A DNA stretch of 64,000 nt from Sphingopyxis panaciterrae (GTDB lineage Bacteria; Pseudomonadota; Alphaproteobacteria; Sphingomonadales; Sphingomonadaceae). Under the pieces are notes generated by a model, which ran no database searches, was not told where the DNA came from, and saw only the letters and a list, made by a program, of their open reading frames with translations. The stretch spans positions 186,001-250,000 of the forward strand of contig NZ_JAASQN010000003.1 of NCBI RefSeq assembly GCF_011762125.1. Direction: 5' to 3'. A program made the position numbers and the translations under genes. Position 1 is the first letter of the stretch. Each line of letters opens with the position of its first letter. Of the stretch, positions 25,389 through 28,985 are shown piece after piece.

Positions 25389-25440
25389 TGCCGGACAGCC
25401 ACGGCAACACCGAACAATCCCCAGCAAAAGGAAATTCGAT

Positions 25441-25983
25441 ATGAGCATCGAAACGATGATCGACGCCACGATCGGCAAGGAAGGCGGCTACAGCAATCAC
25501 CCCGCCGACAAGGGCGGCCCGACCCGCTGGGGAATGACCGAACGGGTGGCGCGCGCGAACGGCTATCAGGGCGATATGCGGACGCTGCCGCGCGAAACGG
25601 CGGTGGCGATTTATCGCCTGGTCTATGCGATCCGCCCGGGCTTTGCCGCGGTGGCCGAGATCGACAGTGCAGTCGGCGAGGAATTGTTCGACACGGGCGT
25701 CAACATGGGGCCGTCGGTGCCAGCGCTGTGGTTCCAGCAGGCGCTGAATGCGCTGAACGATGGCGGCAAGCTGTACGCCGACATCAAGGAAGATGGCGAC
25801 ATCGGCCCGGCGACGCTGGGGGCGTTCAGGGCGTATCTACGCGCGCGTGGCAGCGAGGCCAGCAAAGTCATGCTGCGGGCACTGAATGCGATGCAGGGGG
25901 CGCGCTATATCGAACTGTCGCGGATGCGGGTCGCGAACGAAGCCTTTACCTATGGGTGGCTGCGCACGCGCGTCGCGGTGTGA
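25441..25983 (+). CDS. endolysin, GH108 family N-acetylmuramidase
   Basis: ATG 25441 gives 180 residues, the normal length. The N terminus IDATIGKEGGYSNHPADKGGPTRWGMT is diagnostic of GH108 (catalytic Glu14). The C-terminal half matches the peptidoglycan-binding part (LFDTGVNMGPSVPALWFQQALNAL). The enzyme cuts the glycan backbone of peptidoglycan at lysis. It stands first in the lysis cassette, before holin and spanins. Confidence 0.92.
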   Translation: MSIETMIDATIGKEGGYSNHPADKGGPTRWGMTERVARANGYQGDMRTLPRETAVAIYRLVYAIRPGFAAVAEIDSAVGEELFDTGVNMGPSVPALWFQQALNALNDGGKLYADIKEDGDIGPATLGAFRAYLRARGSEASKVMLRALNAMQGARYIELSRMRVANEAFTYGWLRTRVAV

Positions 25984-26017: not shown

Positions 26018-26398
26018 ATGGAAAATTTCTCCCTATCCGACTGGATCACGGCGGCGGGCTACACGTTGCTGGCGTCGGTCGCGGGGCTGCTGGGGCATGT
26101 GATGCGCGAGCATGACAAGGGCAATCCGCTGTCGTGGTGGCGTGCCGCGGCCGAGACATTCTCTTCGGGGCTCGTCGGCTTCCTCGTCATGCTGCTTTGC
26201 CGCGCGATGGATATCGACCCTTTGTGGTCGGGGTTCATCGTCGGCATCTTCGGTTGGCTGGGTGCGAATGCGTCGATCCGGCTGCTCGAGCGGCTGGTCT
26301 ATGAAAAACTGGGGCTGAAGCTGCGCGCCAACACCGACAAGCGGGTTAAGGCGGCGCGGAGCGGGGGAGACAGGGCAACCGAAGGAGAGCAGCCATGA
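26018..26398 (+). CDS. holin-like membrane protein (126 aa)
   Basis: ATG 26018 follows a CAGGGG site. The product has three likely membrane segments (TAAGYTLLASVAGLLGHVM, SSGLVGFLVMLLCRAM, WSGFIVGIFGWLGANAS) and a charged C-terminal tail, typical of class I-like phage holins. Its place between endolysin and spanins fits a holin that opens the inner membrane. The stop overlaps the next start (ATGA). Confidence 0.78.
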   Translation: MENFSLSDWITAAGYTLLASVAGLLGHVMREHDKGNPLSWWRAAAETFSSGLVGFLVMLLCRAMDIDPLWSGFIVGIFGWLGANASIRLLERLVYEKLGLKLRANTDKRVKAARSGGDRATEGEQP

Positions 26399-26787
26399 CC
26401 TGGCTCAGCAAATTCATCACGCCCGGCATCCGATCGCATCTGCTGGGCGCGATCGGCGTCGTCGCGGTGTGCGGGATCGTCATGAGCACGATCGCGGGTT
26501 TCTATATCCGGCAGCAGAATCAGACGATCCGCGCCAAGGATGCGGTGATCGCGCACAAGGAAGCGCAGGTCGACGGGCTGGCGAAGTCCGTCGCGTCGAT
26601 GGCGGCGCTGCGCGAGCTGGAGCATCGGAATGCCCGGCTGTTGCAGGAGAAGTTGACGCTGATCGAGACGCAATCAGTCGAAATGTCGGATCAACTCAGA
26701 AAGCTGGAGGCGTCGAATGCCGAGGTCAAAGAATATATGTCTCGCCCTATTCCTGCCGATCTGCGCCGCCTGCTCGAACAAAAGTGA
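26395..26787 (+). CDS. i-spanin (Rz-like)
   Basis: The 130-residue protein has an N-terminal membrane anchor (about residues 16-38, IGVVAVCGIVMSTIAGFYI) and a long periplasmic coiled coil. This is the inner-membrane spanin layout. It starts inside the holin stop and contains the Rz1 start in another frame. Together with the outer lipoprotein it fuses inner and outer membranes in the last step of lysis. Confidence 0.82.
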   Translation: MTWLSKFITPGIRSHLLGAIGVVAVCGIVMSTIAGFYIRQQNQTIRAKDAVIAHKEAQVDGLAKSVASMAALRELEHRNARLLQEKLTLIETQSVEMSDQLRKLEASNAEVKEYMSRPIPADLRRLLEQK

Positions 26788-26986
26788 ACTGGTGCGGGTG
26801 CCGGTCTATGCCGGATTGCCCGCCGAGATGCTGGCGCCGTGCGTCGTCCAGGACGTGCAGCTGGTGACGACCGGCGACATCGTGGTCAGCCGCAATCGAT
26901 ATGTCGAGGCGTTTCAGAAGTGCGCGGCAAAGGTCGATGCGATCCGCAAGCATGATGCGGAGGCGCGGGTAGCGCCCGCTAAATAA
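26717..26986 (+). CDS. o-spanin (Rz1-like lipoprotein), nested in Rz
   Basis: The 89-residue frame starts inside the i-spanin gene, shifted by one base, and extends 200 bases beyond it. It begins with a short signal peptide and a lipobox-like PICAACS (Cys19), so the mature protein is probably an outer-membrane lipoprotein. Overlapping Rz/Rz1 pairs are a well-known spanin arrangement. The mature part is longer than lambda Rz1 and not proline-rich, so function is inferred from context. Confidence 0.72.
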   Translation: MPRSKNICLALFLPICAACSNKSELVRVPVYAGLPAEMLAPCVVQDVQLVTTGDIVVSRNRYVEAFQKCAAKVDAIRKHDAEARVAPAK

Positions 26987-27644
26987 GGCCCGGTTGGACG
27001 CTTGGCTTCGGCGGTCGCGGGGCGGTCCATGGTTCGGCGGTACGATCGACCAGCAGGCGGTCGGCGGGATATTGGGTCGCCAGCTCCATCGCTTCGTCGG
27101 CGGGCGCGGACAGCCAGGCATCGTAATCGTCGGGGTGCAGGATGACGGGCATGCGATCATGAATGGCGAGCATGCGTTCGTCGGTCGCGTCGACCATCAC
27201 CATCGAATGGCAATTGCCGAATTCGTCGGTCGGGCGCCATATTCCGGCGCAAGCCGCGATCGGTTGATCGGCGATGCTGATCCATGCGCGCGTCATATGC
27301 CTCTTTTCTCCCACGGCTTCGCAAAAGGCGGTGATCGGAATCAGACAGCGGTGCGCCGGATCCAGAAACCATGGCCGCCATAGCCCCTTTGGCGCCAGCA
27401 GCTTGTCGTCGCGGGCGTTGTTGACCGCCAGCGGCTTGCTGGTCGGCTTCATGCCGGCGGGGCGAAAGGGAAAGCCCCAGTGCATCGCCTCCAACACCCG
27501 CTCGCCGGCGTCGTCGCGCACGACGAAACCCATGCCGCCCTTCCACACCTCGCCCGGCCCGGCGTTAGTCGGCTTTTTCCGCCTTGCCTTGAAATGGGCG
27601 GCGACCACGTCGACCGCGACGTCGCTGCGGATCAGGTTGCACAT
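26979..27644 (-). CDS. SOS response-associated peptidase (SRAP, YedK/HMCES type)
   Basis: The 221-residue protein keeps all four catalytic positions known from E. coli YedK: Cys2 (MCNLIR), Asn in NNARDD, Glu in AFCEAVG, and His in AIHDRMPVIL. This family covalently captures abasic sites in single-stranded DNA through a thiazolidine link on Cys2, shielding them from breakage. It is the last gene of a four-gene minus-strand operon behind a LexA box (28718-28732). Its stop overlaps the o-spanin stop by eight bases, so the operon is convergent with the lysis genes. Whether it belongs to the prophage or the host is unclear. Confidence 0.9.
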   Translation of the reverse strand: MCNLIRSDVAVDVVAAHFKARRKKPTNAGPGEVWKGGMGFVVRDDAGERVLEAMHWGFPFRPAGMKPTSKPLAVNNARDDKLLAPKGLWRPWFLDPAHRCLIPITAFCEAVGEKRHMTRAWISIADQPIAACAGIWRPTDEFGNCHSMVMVDATDERMLAIHDRMPVILHPDDYDAWLSAPADEAMELATQYPADRLLVDRTAEPWTAPRPPKPSVQPGLI

Positions 27645-27663
27645 CGGCGGCTCCCGGTTCGGG

Positions 27664-28173
27664 CTATAGCGCCAGGCTGGATTGCACCGGCGGGCCCTTC
27701 ACGATGAAGCTATTCTTGGGGAAGGGGCGCAAGATGTCCAGCGGGTCGCGGGTCTGGTCCATCCAGTCGTCCCAGTCGTCGGGGTGGACGACCGCGACAT
27801 GGCGATCCTTATAGGGCGCGAGATCGGGATAGGCGGGCACCGTCAGCGCGGCGAAGCTGTCGGGCCAGTCGCGATGGCCGCCGCGGGGGCGCCAGACGCC
27901 GGCAATGCAAAAGAAAGGTTCGTCGGTGATCAGTCGGGCGCGGTAATGTGCGCCACCGCCCTCGCGCTGCATGCCGAATTCGGTGGCGATGATCAGGCAC
28001 GGCCGATCGATGCGCGCGCGTTCGGATTGCAGCAACGCGATTTTTTTGATGCCGGGATCGTTCGACGGCAGGCCCCAATACATCGAAATCGGTTCATCGA
28101 TCGCGGCGTGCATCACCATATGCCGGCGGCCCGGGCCATCCAGCGAGGGATCGAGGTCAATGGCGTCGTTCAT
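27664..28173 (-). CDS. SRAP-like protein lacking all four catalytic residues
   Basis: ATG 28173 has AGGAG eight bases upstream; the frame runs further up but without a good start. The 169-residue protein aligns with its downstream neighbour over the SRAP core: SMYWGLPS against AMHWGFPF, CIAGVWRP against ACAGIWRP, and HVAVVHPDDWDDWM against MPVILHPDDYDAWL. Cys2 is absent (the protein starts MNDAID), the Asn segment is deleted or replaced (LLQSERAR), the Glu position reads Met, and the His of IHDRMP is Lys. It should be unable to crosslink abasic DNA, but could bind DNA or the active partner. The gene is 19 bases from the active SRAP gene. Confidence 0.8.
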   Translation of the reverse strand: MNDAIDLDPSLDGPGRRHMVMHAAIDEPISMYWGLPSNDPGIKKIALLQSERARIDRPCLIIATEFGMQREGGGAHYRARLITDEPFFCIAGVWRPRGGHRDWPDSFAALTVPAYPDLAPYKDRHVAVVHPDDWDDWMDQTRDPLDILRPFPKNSFIVKGPPVQSSLAL

Positions 28174-28184
28174 GACGTTCACTC

Positions 28185-28514
28185 CTATGATCGGAAGCGA
28201 CGAAGCGCGTTTTTCCACACCCTCTCTTCGGGTTCCGGTAGCCGAATATCGGCGGTGCTTTCCGCGACCAGCACGATGCGCACCGGCGTGACGCGGCGCC
28301 CGATCCGCCCGGCGCAGGCGCGGCACCAAAAGCGTCGCCGCGCATCGCGCAGATGATCGTTCCACCCCCGCTTTTCGAAATGCCACCACAGCCCGTGCGG
28401 GCTGAAGGTCGCGCTATGGCCGCAGCGACAGACCGGCTTGACGGCATAATGCCATGCCGCGGCCTCGAATATATGCGTCGCGCGGCGCAGGCCGTCCCTG
28501 GTGTTGACGGACAC
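28185..28514 (-). CDS. small four-cysteine, probable zinc-ribbon protein (109 aa)
   Basis: GTG 28514 is preferred because it follows the upstream stop by one base. The product has Cys-x-Cys (VCRCGHSATF) and a second pair RFWCRACAGRIGRR 35 residues later, which together could bind one metal ion, with an aromatic, charged segment between (WWHFEKRGWNDHLRDARR). It looks like a small zinc-ribbon nucleic-acid-binding protein. No named family is recalled. It is second in the LexA-box operon; 11 bases separate it from the SRAP-like gene. Confidence 0.65.
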   Translation of the reverse strand: MSVNTRDGLRRATHIFEAAAWHYAVKPVCRCGHSATFSPHGLWWHFEKRGWNDHLRDARRRFWCRACAGRIGRRVTPVRIVLVAESTADIRLPEPEERVWKNALRRFRS

Positions 28515-28515
28515 G

Positions 28516-28713
28516 TCACAGAGACAAAGCCAGCTGCGCCGGATCGGCGGGCTGGCCCTTTCCTTCAAGATGGTCGGCGATCGATTGCGCCAGCTCGCGC
28601 AGCGACTGGCGGCGCTGATGTTCGGCGGGCGAAGTCAGGCCGACGCGTGCCCAGCCGGGCGCGTCGAGAATCGCATTTTCGATAATCTGGGGGTCGAGTC
28701 GTTCCATGCGCAT
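28516..28713 (-). CDS. small conserved protein (65 aa, DUF6771-like), first gene of SOS operon
   Basis: Starts considered are ATG 28713 and ATG 28707; the frame continues to TTG 28734. The core (IIENAILDAPGWARVGLTSPAEHQRRQSLRELAQSIADHL, cited as residues about 10-49) is like a short sphingomonad family I recall as DUF6771, unverified. It is helical and has no cysteines. It is separated from the next gene by one base and lies directly behind the LexA box. Function unknown. Confidence 0.6.
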   Translation of the reverse strand: MRMERLDPQIIENAILDAPGWARVGLTSPAEHQRRQSLRELAQSIADHLEGKGQPADPAQLALSL

Positions 28714-28717
28714 ATGA

Positions 28718-28732
28718 GAACGCAAGGAGAAC
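28718..28732 (-). promoter_or_regulatory. LexA (SOS) box, alphaproteobacterial type
   Basis: The plus strand reads GAAC-GCAAGGA-GAAC, i.e. GTTC-N7-GTTC on the coding strand. This is the established alphaproteobacterial LexA site (Rhizobium, Rhodobacter, Caulobacter). It ends five bases before ATG 28713. A TTGCAA at 28736-28741 on the minus strand with TCTCAT 17 bases later could be the promoter, overlapped by the box. LexA would therefore repress the four-gene SRAP operon until DNA damage. Confidence 0.8.
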
Positions 28733-28746
28733 AAAATTGCAAGTGG

Positions 28747-28829: not shown

Positions 28830-28985
28830 AATTATGGGAGCCCGGCTCGGGCCTCCAGCTTTCCCGAATCCTTGAGATGCCGACGGCGAACGCTGCTGTC
28901 GGCTTTATATGCTGCCCGCGAAAGGGAACTCCCGCTCCCGTCGGCGCTTCTCTCCATGAAGCCATGTTCGACCAACGGAAGTGCC

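Follow-up and report, generated by a model that had tools for sequence, protein, structure and literature searches.

The stretch analysed here (64,000 nucleotides of the Sphingopyxis panaciterrae contig NZ_JAASQN010000003.1, positions 186,001 to 250,000 of the forward strand; hereafter the window) carries on its minus strand a compact operon that encodes, in order, a small protein of the DUF6771 family, a four-cysteine protein and two proteins of the SOS response-associated peptidase (SRAP) family, the second of which retains the catalytic residues. A sequence-only reading of this DNA had described four minus-strand open reading frames, separated by gaps of 1, 11 and 19 nucleotides, behind a perfect GAAC-N7-GAAC box at 28718-28732, and both the frames and the box are present as claimed. 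The features of the operon, in window coordinates and in the direction of transcription, are the following:

28740..28742, minus strand: TTG of a -35-like element, 7 nucleotides upstream of the box (TTG-N7-GTTCN7GTTC)
28718..28732, minus strand: LexA box, GTTCTCCTTGCGTTC on the coding strand (as GAAC-N7-GAAC, GAACGCAAGGAGAAC), its position shared by all 19 operon loci
28516..28707, minus strand: gene 1, DUF6771 family, 63 residues (Pfam PF20561, 4.7e-22)
28519..28536, minus strand: C-terminal QLALSL of gene 1, a clamp-binding-like motif
28185..28514, minus strand: gene 2, four-cysteine protein with invariant cysteines, putative metal binder, 109 residues
27664..28173, minus strand: gene 3, truncated SRAP without Cys2, 169 residues (Pfam SRAP, 1.7e-8)
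27667..27684, minus strand: C-terminal QSSLAL of gene 3, clamp-binding-like
26979..27644, minus strand: gene 4, SRAP with intact catalytic residues, 221 residues (Pfam SRAP, 1.8e-24)

The operon and its LexA-type box

The sequence-only reading had proposed a search for the four genes together, and together they recur: at all 19 Sphingopyxis loci examined (the window, two plasmids and 16 stretches of 15 other genomes, all chosen through a match to gene 3), the same four genes stand in the same order. At one of these loci (L032) gene 4 is truncated close to the end of a contig, and at two others (L040 and L041) gene 3 is broken and the remaining three genes stay open. A scan of genome contigs found gene 3 relatives at 26 loci; the record titles give Sphingopyxis or higher ranks that name no genus (Sphingomonadaceae, Sphingomonadales, Alphaproteobacteria and Proteobacteria). 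The genome-contig and viral scans relied on two short peptide patterns each, and in the large genome sets part of the first-look candidates was scored. The orthologs also amend the call of gene 1: the 65-residue start at 28713 given previously is probably wrong, as they fit an ATG at 28707 and a protein of 63 residues. The distance from box to start, put at five bases before, is 4 nucleotides from 28713 and 10 nucleotides from the conserved ATG.

GTTC-N7-GTTC lies 10 nucleotides (11 in one case) upstream of gene 1 at 19 of 19 loci, with a seven-base spacer that varies, and a TTG stands exactly seven bases upstream of the box at every one of them, as well as in 52 of the 58 box-bearing DUF6771 instances described below. 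This placement of the box, together with the spacing of the TTG, gives the layout of a LexA-covered promoter. Orthologous operons lacking the box, which the sequence-only reading had named as the pattern that would contradict it, were not seen among the 19 loci. By itself the box was not counted as evidence, because its frequency in the window (2 occurrences, against 2.05 expected from shuffles) is at chance level; the whole genome has 121 copies of the pattern and 68 of a reversed control pattern, so that many single boxes are chance. The observation stands above chance because four genes and box are conserved at 19 of 19 loci, and we are close to certain that this is a conserved operon behind a LexA-type box.

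Consistent with the earlier assignment of the box to an established class of LexA site, GTTCN7GTTC and GAACN7GAAC are cited as alphaproteobacterial LexA sites in the available part of PMC3091678, and the same pattern lies upstream of the genome's own recA (box at C1:923995-924009, RecA match beginning at 924146) and lexA (box at C1:1382222-1382236, LexA match at 1381995-1382183 on the minus strand). The promoter of the operon would be expected to bind LexA and to be induced by DNA damage. Elsewhere in this genome, RmuC-like, AlkB-like and radical-SAM-like genes, read by eye, follow boxes that belong to a set of 11 chosen by spacer, several of which have no obvious SOS gene behind them.

Gene 2 keeps C29, C31, C64 and C67 invariant in 21 rows, as well as H33, which bears out its four cysteines as a conserved CxC...CxxC pattern. 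Its predicted model is confident (pLDDT 90), and no credible family was found for it in Pfam, NCBIfam or PHROGs. We regard the protein as a putative metal binder, on the strength of its cysteines; a zinc ribbon is unproven.

Live and truncated SRAP proteins

Both SRAP genes lie above the curated Pfam cut-off (1.7e-8 for gene 3, at 34.7 bits against a cut-off of 27.1, and 1.8e-24 for gene 4), and the distinction previously drawn between a residue-dead and an intact member holds: gene 4 has the Cys2, Asn, Glu and His of the active site, and gene 3 lacks all four. In an alignment of 12 rows, C2, N75, N76, E109 and H162 of gene 4 are invariant; roles for Cys2, Glu105 and His160 have been described in YedK (PMC9436759, in the part available). 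By its residues gene 4 is a catalytic-type SRAP that would be expected to cap abasic (AP) sites. Gene 3 has no Met-Cys (MC) start, has lost the Asn, and in the alignment places Met66 at the position of the Glu and Lys122 at that of the His, with Lys at the catalytic His position in 17 of 17 aligned gene 3 rows.

This loss of residues is accompanied by purifying selection. The median ratio of nonsynonymous to synonymous substitution (dN/dS) is 0.226 for gene 3 and the same for gene 4 (computed without loci L032, L040 and L041 and from pairs with a dS of 0.1-1.5), so that the intact copies of gene 3 are maintained by selection; a decaying pseudogene is thereby not supported for these copies, though 2 of the 19 are broken. 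Origin as a duplicate of gene 4 is likewise not supported, since in the SRAP tree (a quick method, with long branches flagged) a branch with SH-aLRT support of 97 separates the two, and gene 3 groups, away from gene 4, with truncated Cys2-less SRAPs (SH-aLRT 96). A phmmer search of the PDB with gene 3 returned nothing useful.

Pairing of an active with a non-catalytic SRAP, as claimed for this locus, is real, under selection and recurrent. Head-to-head arrangements of a truncated and a live SRAP occur in Sphingopyxis genomes, on a plasmid of Sphingobium and, in other families, in four stretches that come from three genomes; a LexA box lies between the genes in 15 of the 15 divergent pairs examined, including one (L018) whose catalytic-type member lacks an in-frame MC start. 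On a Rhizobium plasmid, a lone truncated SRAP beside dinB also has the box. Truncated SRAPs that are not of the sphingomonad type keep the His and have lost both Cys2 and the Glu. The genome under study holds a third SRAP (L043, L209; G000:C3:363731-364282), which starts MTSLYRLDA, without Cys2, and apparently, as judged by eye, has also lost the catalytic Glu, which would make it a further non-catalytic SRAP; a similar row occurs in L311.

DUF6771 and clamp-binding-like C-termini

Gene 1 is a clear member of DUF6771 (PF20561; 78 bits against a cut-off of 23.7), a Pfam family without an assigned function for which a literature search found no paper naming it. The family was found in at least 36 of 298 Sphingomonadaceae genomes, spread over at least 21 of 96 genera, and in at least 2 of 289 genomes of the class, both of them Sphingomonadaceae; among the matches scored in these genome samples it is confined to Sphingomonadaceae. 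We know of no earlier report of a LexA box or a clamp-like tail for DUF6771.

Of the set used for upstream regions and tails, one part was collected with gene 3 and another with DUF6771 itself; its coverage is uneven, and clustered counts are given as well. One of 68 rows was dropped for a weak E-value, leaving 67 instances that are distinct in the gene plus 30 upstream nucleotides and that amount to 64 distinct proteins; the window copy is counted twice among the 67, once as an IMG/VR contig cut at the box. An exact box lies within 60 nucleotides upstream in 58 of the 67 instances (56 of the 64 distinct proteins), and at position -24 to -27 in 54 of the 67. Boxed copies also occur where the examined stretch contains neither an SRAP nor gene 2. 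At one such place (L096), the boxed DUF6771 lies upstream of genes that, read by eye, look like a very-short-patch-repair endonuclease and a cytosine methyltransferase, 348-1694 nucleotides past the DUF6771 start.

Despite a widely diverged body, DUF6771 proteins end in QLxLxL-like tails (QLALSL, QLVLAL, QLGLSL, QLNLPL, QMSLPL and others). The sliding-clamp motif is given as QL[S/D]LF, with QLVLGL in Pol IV, and lies at the extreme C-terminus in Pol II and Pol IV, according to the accessible portion of PMC3716654. Under rules set with this published motif in mind, but after some tails had been seen, a clamp-binding-like C-terminus is present in 53 of the 64 distinct proteins by a loose rule and in 41 by a strict one. 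The same rules pick out 56 and 44 of the 67 instances, against means of 1.0 and 0.14 for shuffled tails, and 7 and 0 of 333 neighbouring proteins taken as a control; when the proteins are clustered at 70% identity, the loose rule picks out 29 and the strict rule 23 of 36. The AlphaFold model has helices at residues 6-15, 18-23 and 29-47 and a low-confidence end (a block at pLDDT 61, then 47 from residue 51), and a confident helical body with such a tail is what a docking tail would be expected to look like in a prediction. We consider it reasonably likely that DUF6771, and variably the SRAPs, would dock on the sliding clamp.

Tails of this kind are also enriched among SRAPs. In a sample spread over the alphaproteobacterial class (82 rows from the stretches of 81 listed hits, with the genome under study and one fragment omitted), 26 of 82 rows end in QxxLF and 33 of 82 in the loose motif, with QLSLF and QGSLF as examples, against shuffle expectations of 0.04 and 0.49; most rows have no motif. 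Outside the class the counts are 4 of 39 for QxxLF and 5 of 39 for the loose motif, with expectations of 0.02 and 0.18, in a second sample that joined these 39 rows (part of the hits) to 32 class rows overlapping the first. Rows that share their last 80 residues (in the ortholog comparison, which includes gene 3) or their last 60 (in the second sample) were counted once. Truncated SRAPs have a QxxLxL-like end, for example QTELPL, in 13 of 16 cases. Many SRAP C-termini in stretches L223-L303 and L313-L381 read QxxLF or QxxLL; they belong to Alphaproteobacteria and, now and then, to other lineages of the phylum. A literature search joining 'SOS response-associated peptidase' with 'sliding clamp' found no paper. 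Eukaryotic HMCES carries a PCNA-binding box.

Mobile context and proposed role

The operon lies at the edge of a prophage, for which three further features are needed:

28842..28859: putative attR core CCGGCTCGGGCCTCCAGC; partner attL in the tRNA-Cys 3' end, 13 kb left of the window
25432..25983, plus strand: prophage endolysin near the operon (PHROG 315, 1.8e-40)
26395..26787, plus strand: prophage Rz-like spanin beside the operon (PHROG 89, 1.8e-9)

The earlier suggestion that the operon might be phage-borne is supported by an 18-bp repeat, one copy of which lies at window 28842-28859 and the other, C3:172819-172836, within the 3' end of a tRNA-Cys gene, and by an integrase-like open reading frame (read by eye) 90-1416 bases inside the left prophage end. 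The repeat pair delimits a prophage of about 42 kb that contains both operon and box, about 110 bp from attR, and IMG/VR holds an independent 41,805-base provirus ending at window 28713, which covers the genes and not the box. An empty attachment site was not shown, because the right flank is not conserved: 35 of the 36 genomes searched, the source genome included, match the query, mostly through its tRNA-Cys side, and outside the source genome no match extends past base 178 of 318. Just inside attL (L216), an open reading frame of 831 residues that looks cytosine-methyltransferase-like by eye follows the integrase-like gene.

The operon is also found on two plasmids, near conjugation genes or a ParB gene, the best plasmid matches being to Sphingopyxis granuli and S. 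indica; it is mobile cargo of phage and plasmids. No gene 3 relative was found at E 1e-3 in the phage collection, and in IMG/VR a scan with gene 3, run on two short peptide patterns, verified the prophage of the window and no other. ParB-family and DUF2958-type genes recur just upstream of the operon (L022, L141, L152, L157 and others), which suggests a shared plasmid or integrative-element context.

We propose that DNA damage would inactivate LexA and thereby switch on the four genes together, from a promoter in which the box sits between the -35-like TTG and the start of gene 1. Gene 4 would act as an ordinary Cys2 SRAP capping abasic sites in single-stranded DNA, and gene 3, a non-catalytic SRAP, would probably assist or regulate it. 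The other members examined of the clade to which gene 3 belongs mostly adjoin a live SRAP, with a LexA box between. DUF6771, predicted to be a small helical protein, would dock on the beta sliding clamp through its C-terminal QLxLxL tail and, helped in this copy by the QSSLAL of gene 3, would bring the set to stalled forks, where caps would form on exposed single-stranded templates; gene 2 may be a metal-binding adaptor, and the four proteins would presumably interact. The operon would then be a mobile, SOS-induced abasic-site protection set that reaches the replisome through the clamp, a mechanism that, taken whole, we regard as evenly balanced between right and wrong. In a broader form, bacterial SRAPs would be tethered to the clamp either by a QxxLF tail of their own or by an SOS-induced partner (a Cys2-less SRAP or DUF6771), with the Sphingopyxis operon as the mobile, fully split version; this generalization is tentative, and we would lean slightly against it. 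The eukaryotic SRAP relative, tied to PCNA, offers an analogue for clamp tethering. The observation made by the sequence-only reading is confirmed and is stronger than stated, and its interpretation is partly supported, in the LexA box kept by orthologous operons, the SRAP pair and the phage carriage, with an abasic-site or single-strand DNA response module as a putative role; the identity of gene 1 as DUF6771, the clamp-like tails on DUF6771 and SRAPs, and the wider LexA-boxed SRAP pairs are additions to it.

Several observations weigh against the proposed mechanism. The clamp motif is short; 11 of the 64 distinct DUF6771 proteins fail even the loose rule (the motif lies further from the end in two, has Q replaced by R in one and is missing from the others), and clustering at 50% identity leaves 10 loose and 10 strict of 17. 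Nine of the 67 instances have no exact box within 60 nucleotides, one of them being the IMG/VR copy that ends at the box. For neither gene 1 nor gene 2 did a fold search of the PDB find a match below E 1 (best E 1.3 for gene 2). Among the SRAPs, a clamp-like end occurs in 1 of the 13 intact gene 3 orthologs compared, the window copy, the tail of gene 4 is at best a weak form (QPGLI, with QPELL in two orthologs), and the live SRAPs of pairs outside Sphingomonadaceae (L300, L373-L375) have no clamp-like end. Gene 3 is dispensable at the two loci where it is broken, and DUF6771 is also found with no SRAP nearby, so that it may serve a purpose unconnected with abasic sites.

Two rival readings are the strongest: DUF6771 as a clamp blocker that works independently of the SRAPs, and counter-defence by the SRAP pair. 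As a blocker, this small protein of mobile elements would be induced in the SOS response, occupy the peptide pocket of the clamp and slow host replication or swap polymerases, with the SRAPs as separate cargo. Boxed DUF6771 genes with neither SRAP nor gene 2 in the stretch (L086, L087, L096, L164 and L166, the first three in stretches of about 3 kb) fit such a role, as does a short and variable body with the tail kept, but gene 2 and SRAP genes recur beside DUF6771 in other genera and on viral contigs (L108-L110, L168, L170) and Sphingopyxis operons keep all four genes with short gaps, and we think a blocker unlikely. In a counter-defence role the SRAP pair would cap the abasic sites that host base-removing enzymes or DNA-glycosylase defences create in phage and plasmid DNA as it enters or replicates, to the benefit of the element and not of the host. 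The presence of the operon on a prophage and on plasmids is in line with this, and glycosylase-based antiphage defence is known (PMC11078745, in the available part); the same portion of that source reports, however, that loss of the host YedK left Brig1 immunity unaltered, and similar LexA-boxed SRAP pairs occur in many genomes with no known mobile context (their surroundings were not examined); we judge this role improbable. We give very little credence to a damage sensor, in which SRAP would be an autoproteolytic switch helping to set off prophage lysis or translesion polymerases, an idea that Aravind and colleagues put forward in 2013. Phage SRAPs were suggested to sense damage for a lysis pathway (PMC3765255, available part), and the operon does adjoin lysis genes; yet later biochemistry shows abasic-site crosslinking and finds the active-site residues dispensable for removing the first Met (PMC9436759, again in part), and in the stretches examined around the plasmid operons no gene is named as a phage lysis gene.

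Compared with known systems, gene 4 resembles YedK and HMCES in having Cys2 and the catalytic Asn, Glu and His and in passing the Pfam cut-off, whereas it differs in being phage- or plasmid-borne and paired, behind one LexA box, with a Cys2-less SRAP, a four-cysteine protein and DUF6771. SOS neighbourhoods with SRAP had been described around ImuA-ImuB-DnaE2, DinB, and Ku with two Zn-chelating proteins, and prophage SRAPs had been noted already (Aravind 2013, PMC3765255, in the part available). The Sphingopyxis operon shares with these the link of SRAP to SOS genes and, if gene 2 binds metal as supposed, to small Zn-chelating proteins, but has no polymerase, Ku or ligase and includes a non-catalytic SRAP; it represents an SRAP-in-SOS-response theme already known in kind, in a new form. 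The SRAP cysteine was called absolutely conserved in the available part of that work, the main text of which contains no word beginning with 'clamp'. The recurrent pairing of live and truncated SRAPs with a LexA box is here described in Sphingomonadaceae and in other alphaproteobacterial families.

DUF6771 and many SRAPs end in peptides that match those of clamp binders (Pol II QLGLF, Pol IV QLVLGL, UmuC QLNLF), although DUF6771 is a non-polymerase of about 62 residues with no fold relative found and with predicted clamp binding only. The proposal provides a first hypothesis for what this Pfam family does, and the idea of fork recruitment through clamp-docking tails, borne by SRAPs and by their small SOS partner, can be tested directly and cheaply. 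In L210, an AlkB-like protein behind a LexA box has QGDLFG near its N-terminus, which looks clamp-like by eye.

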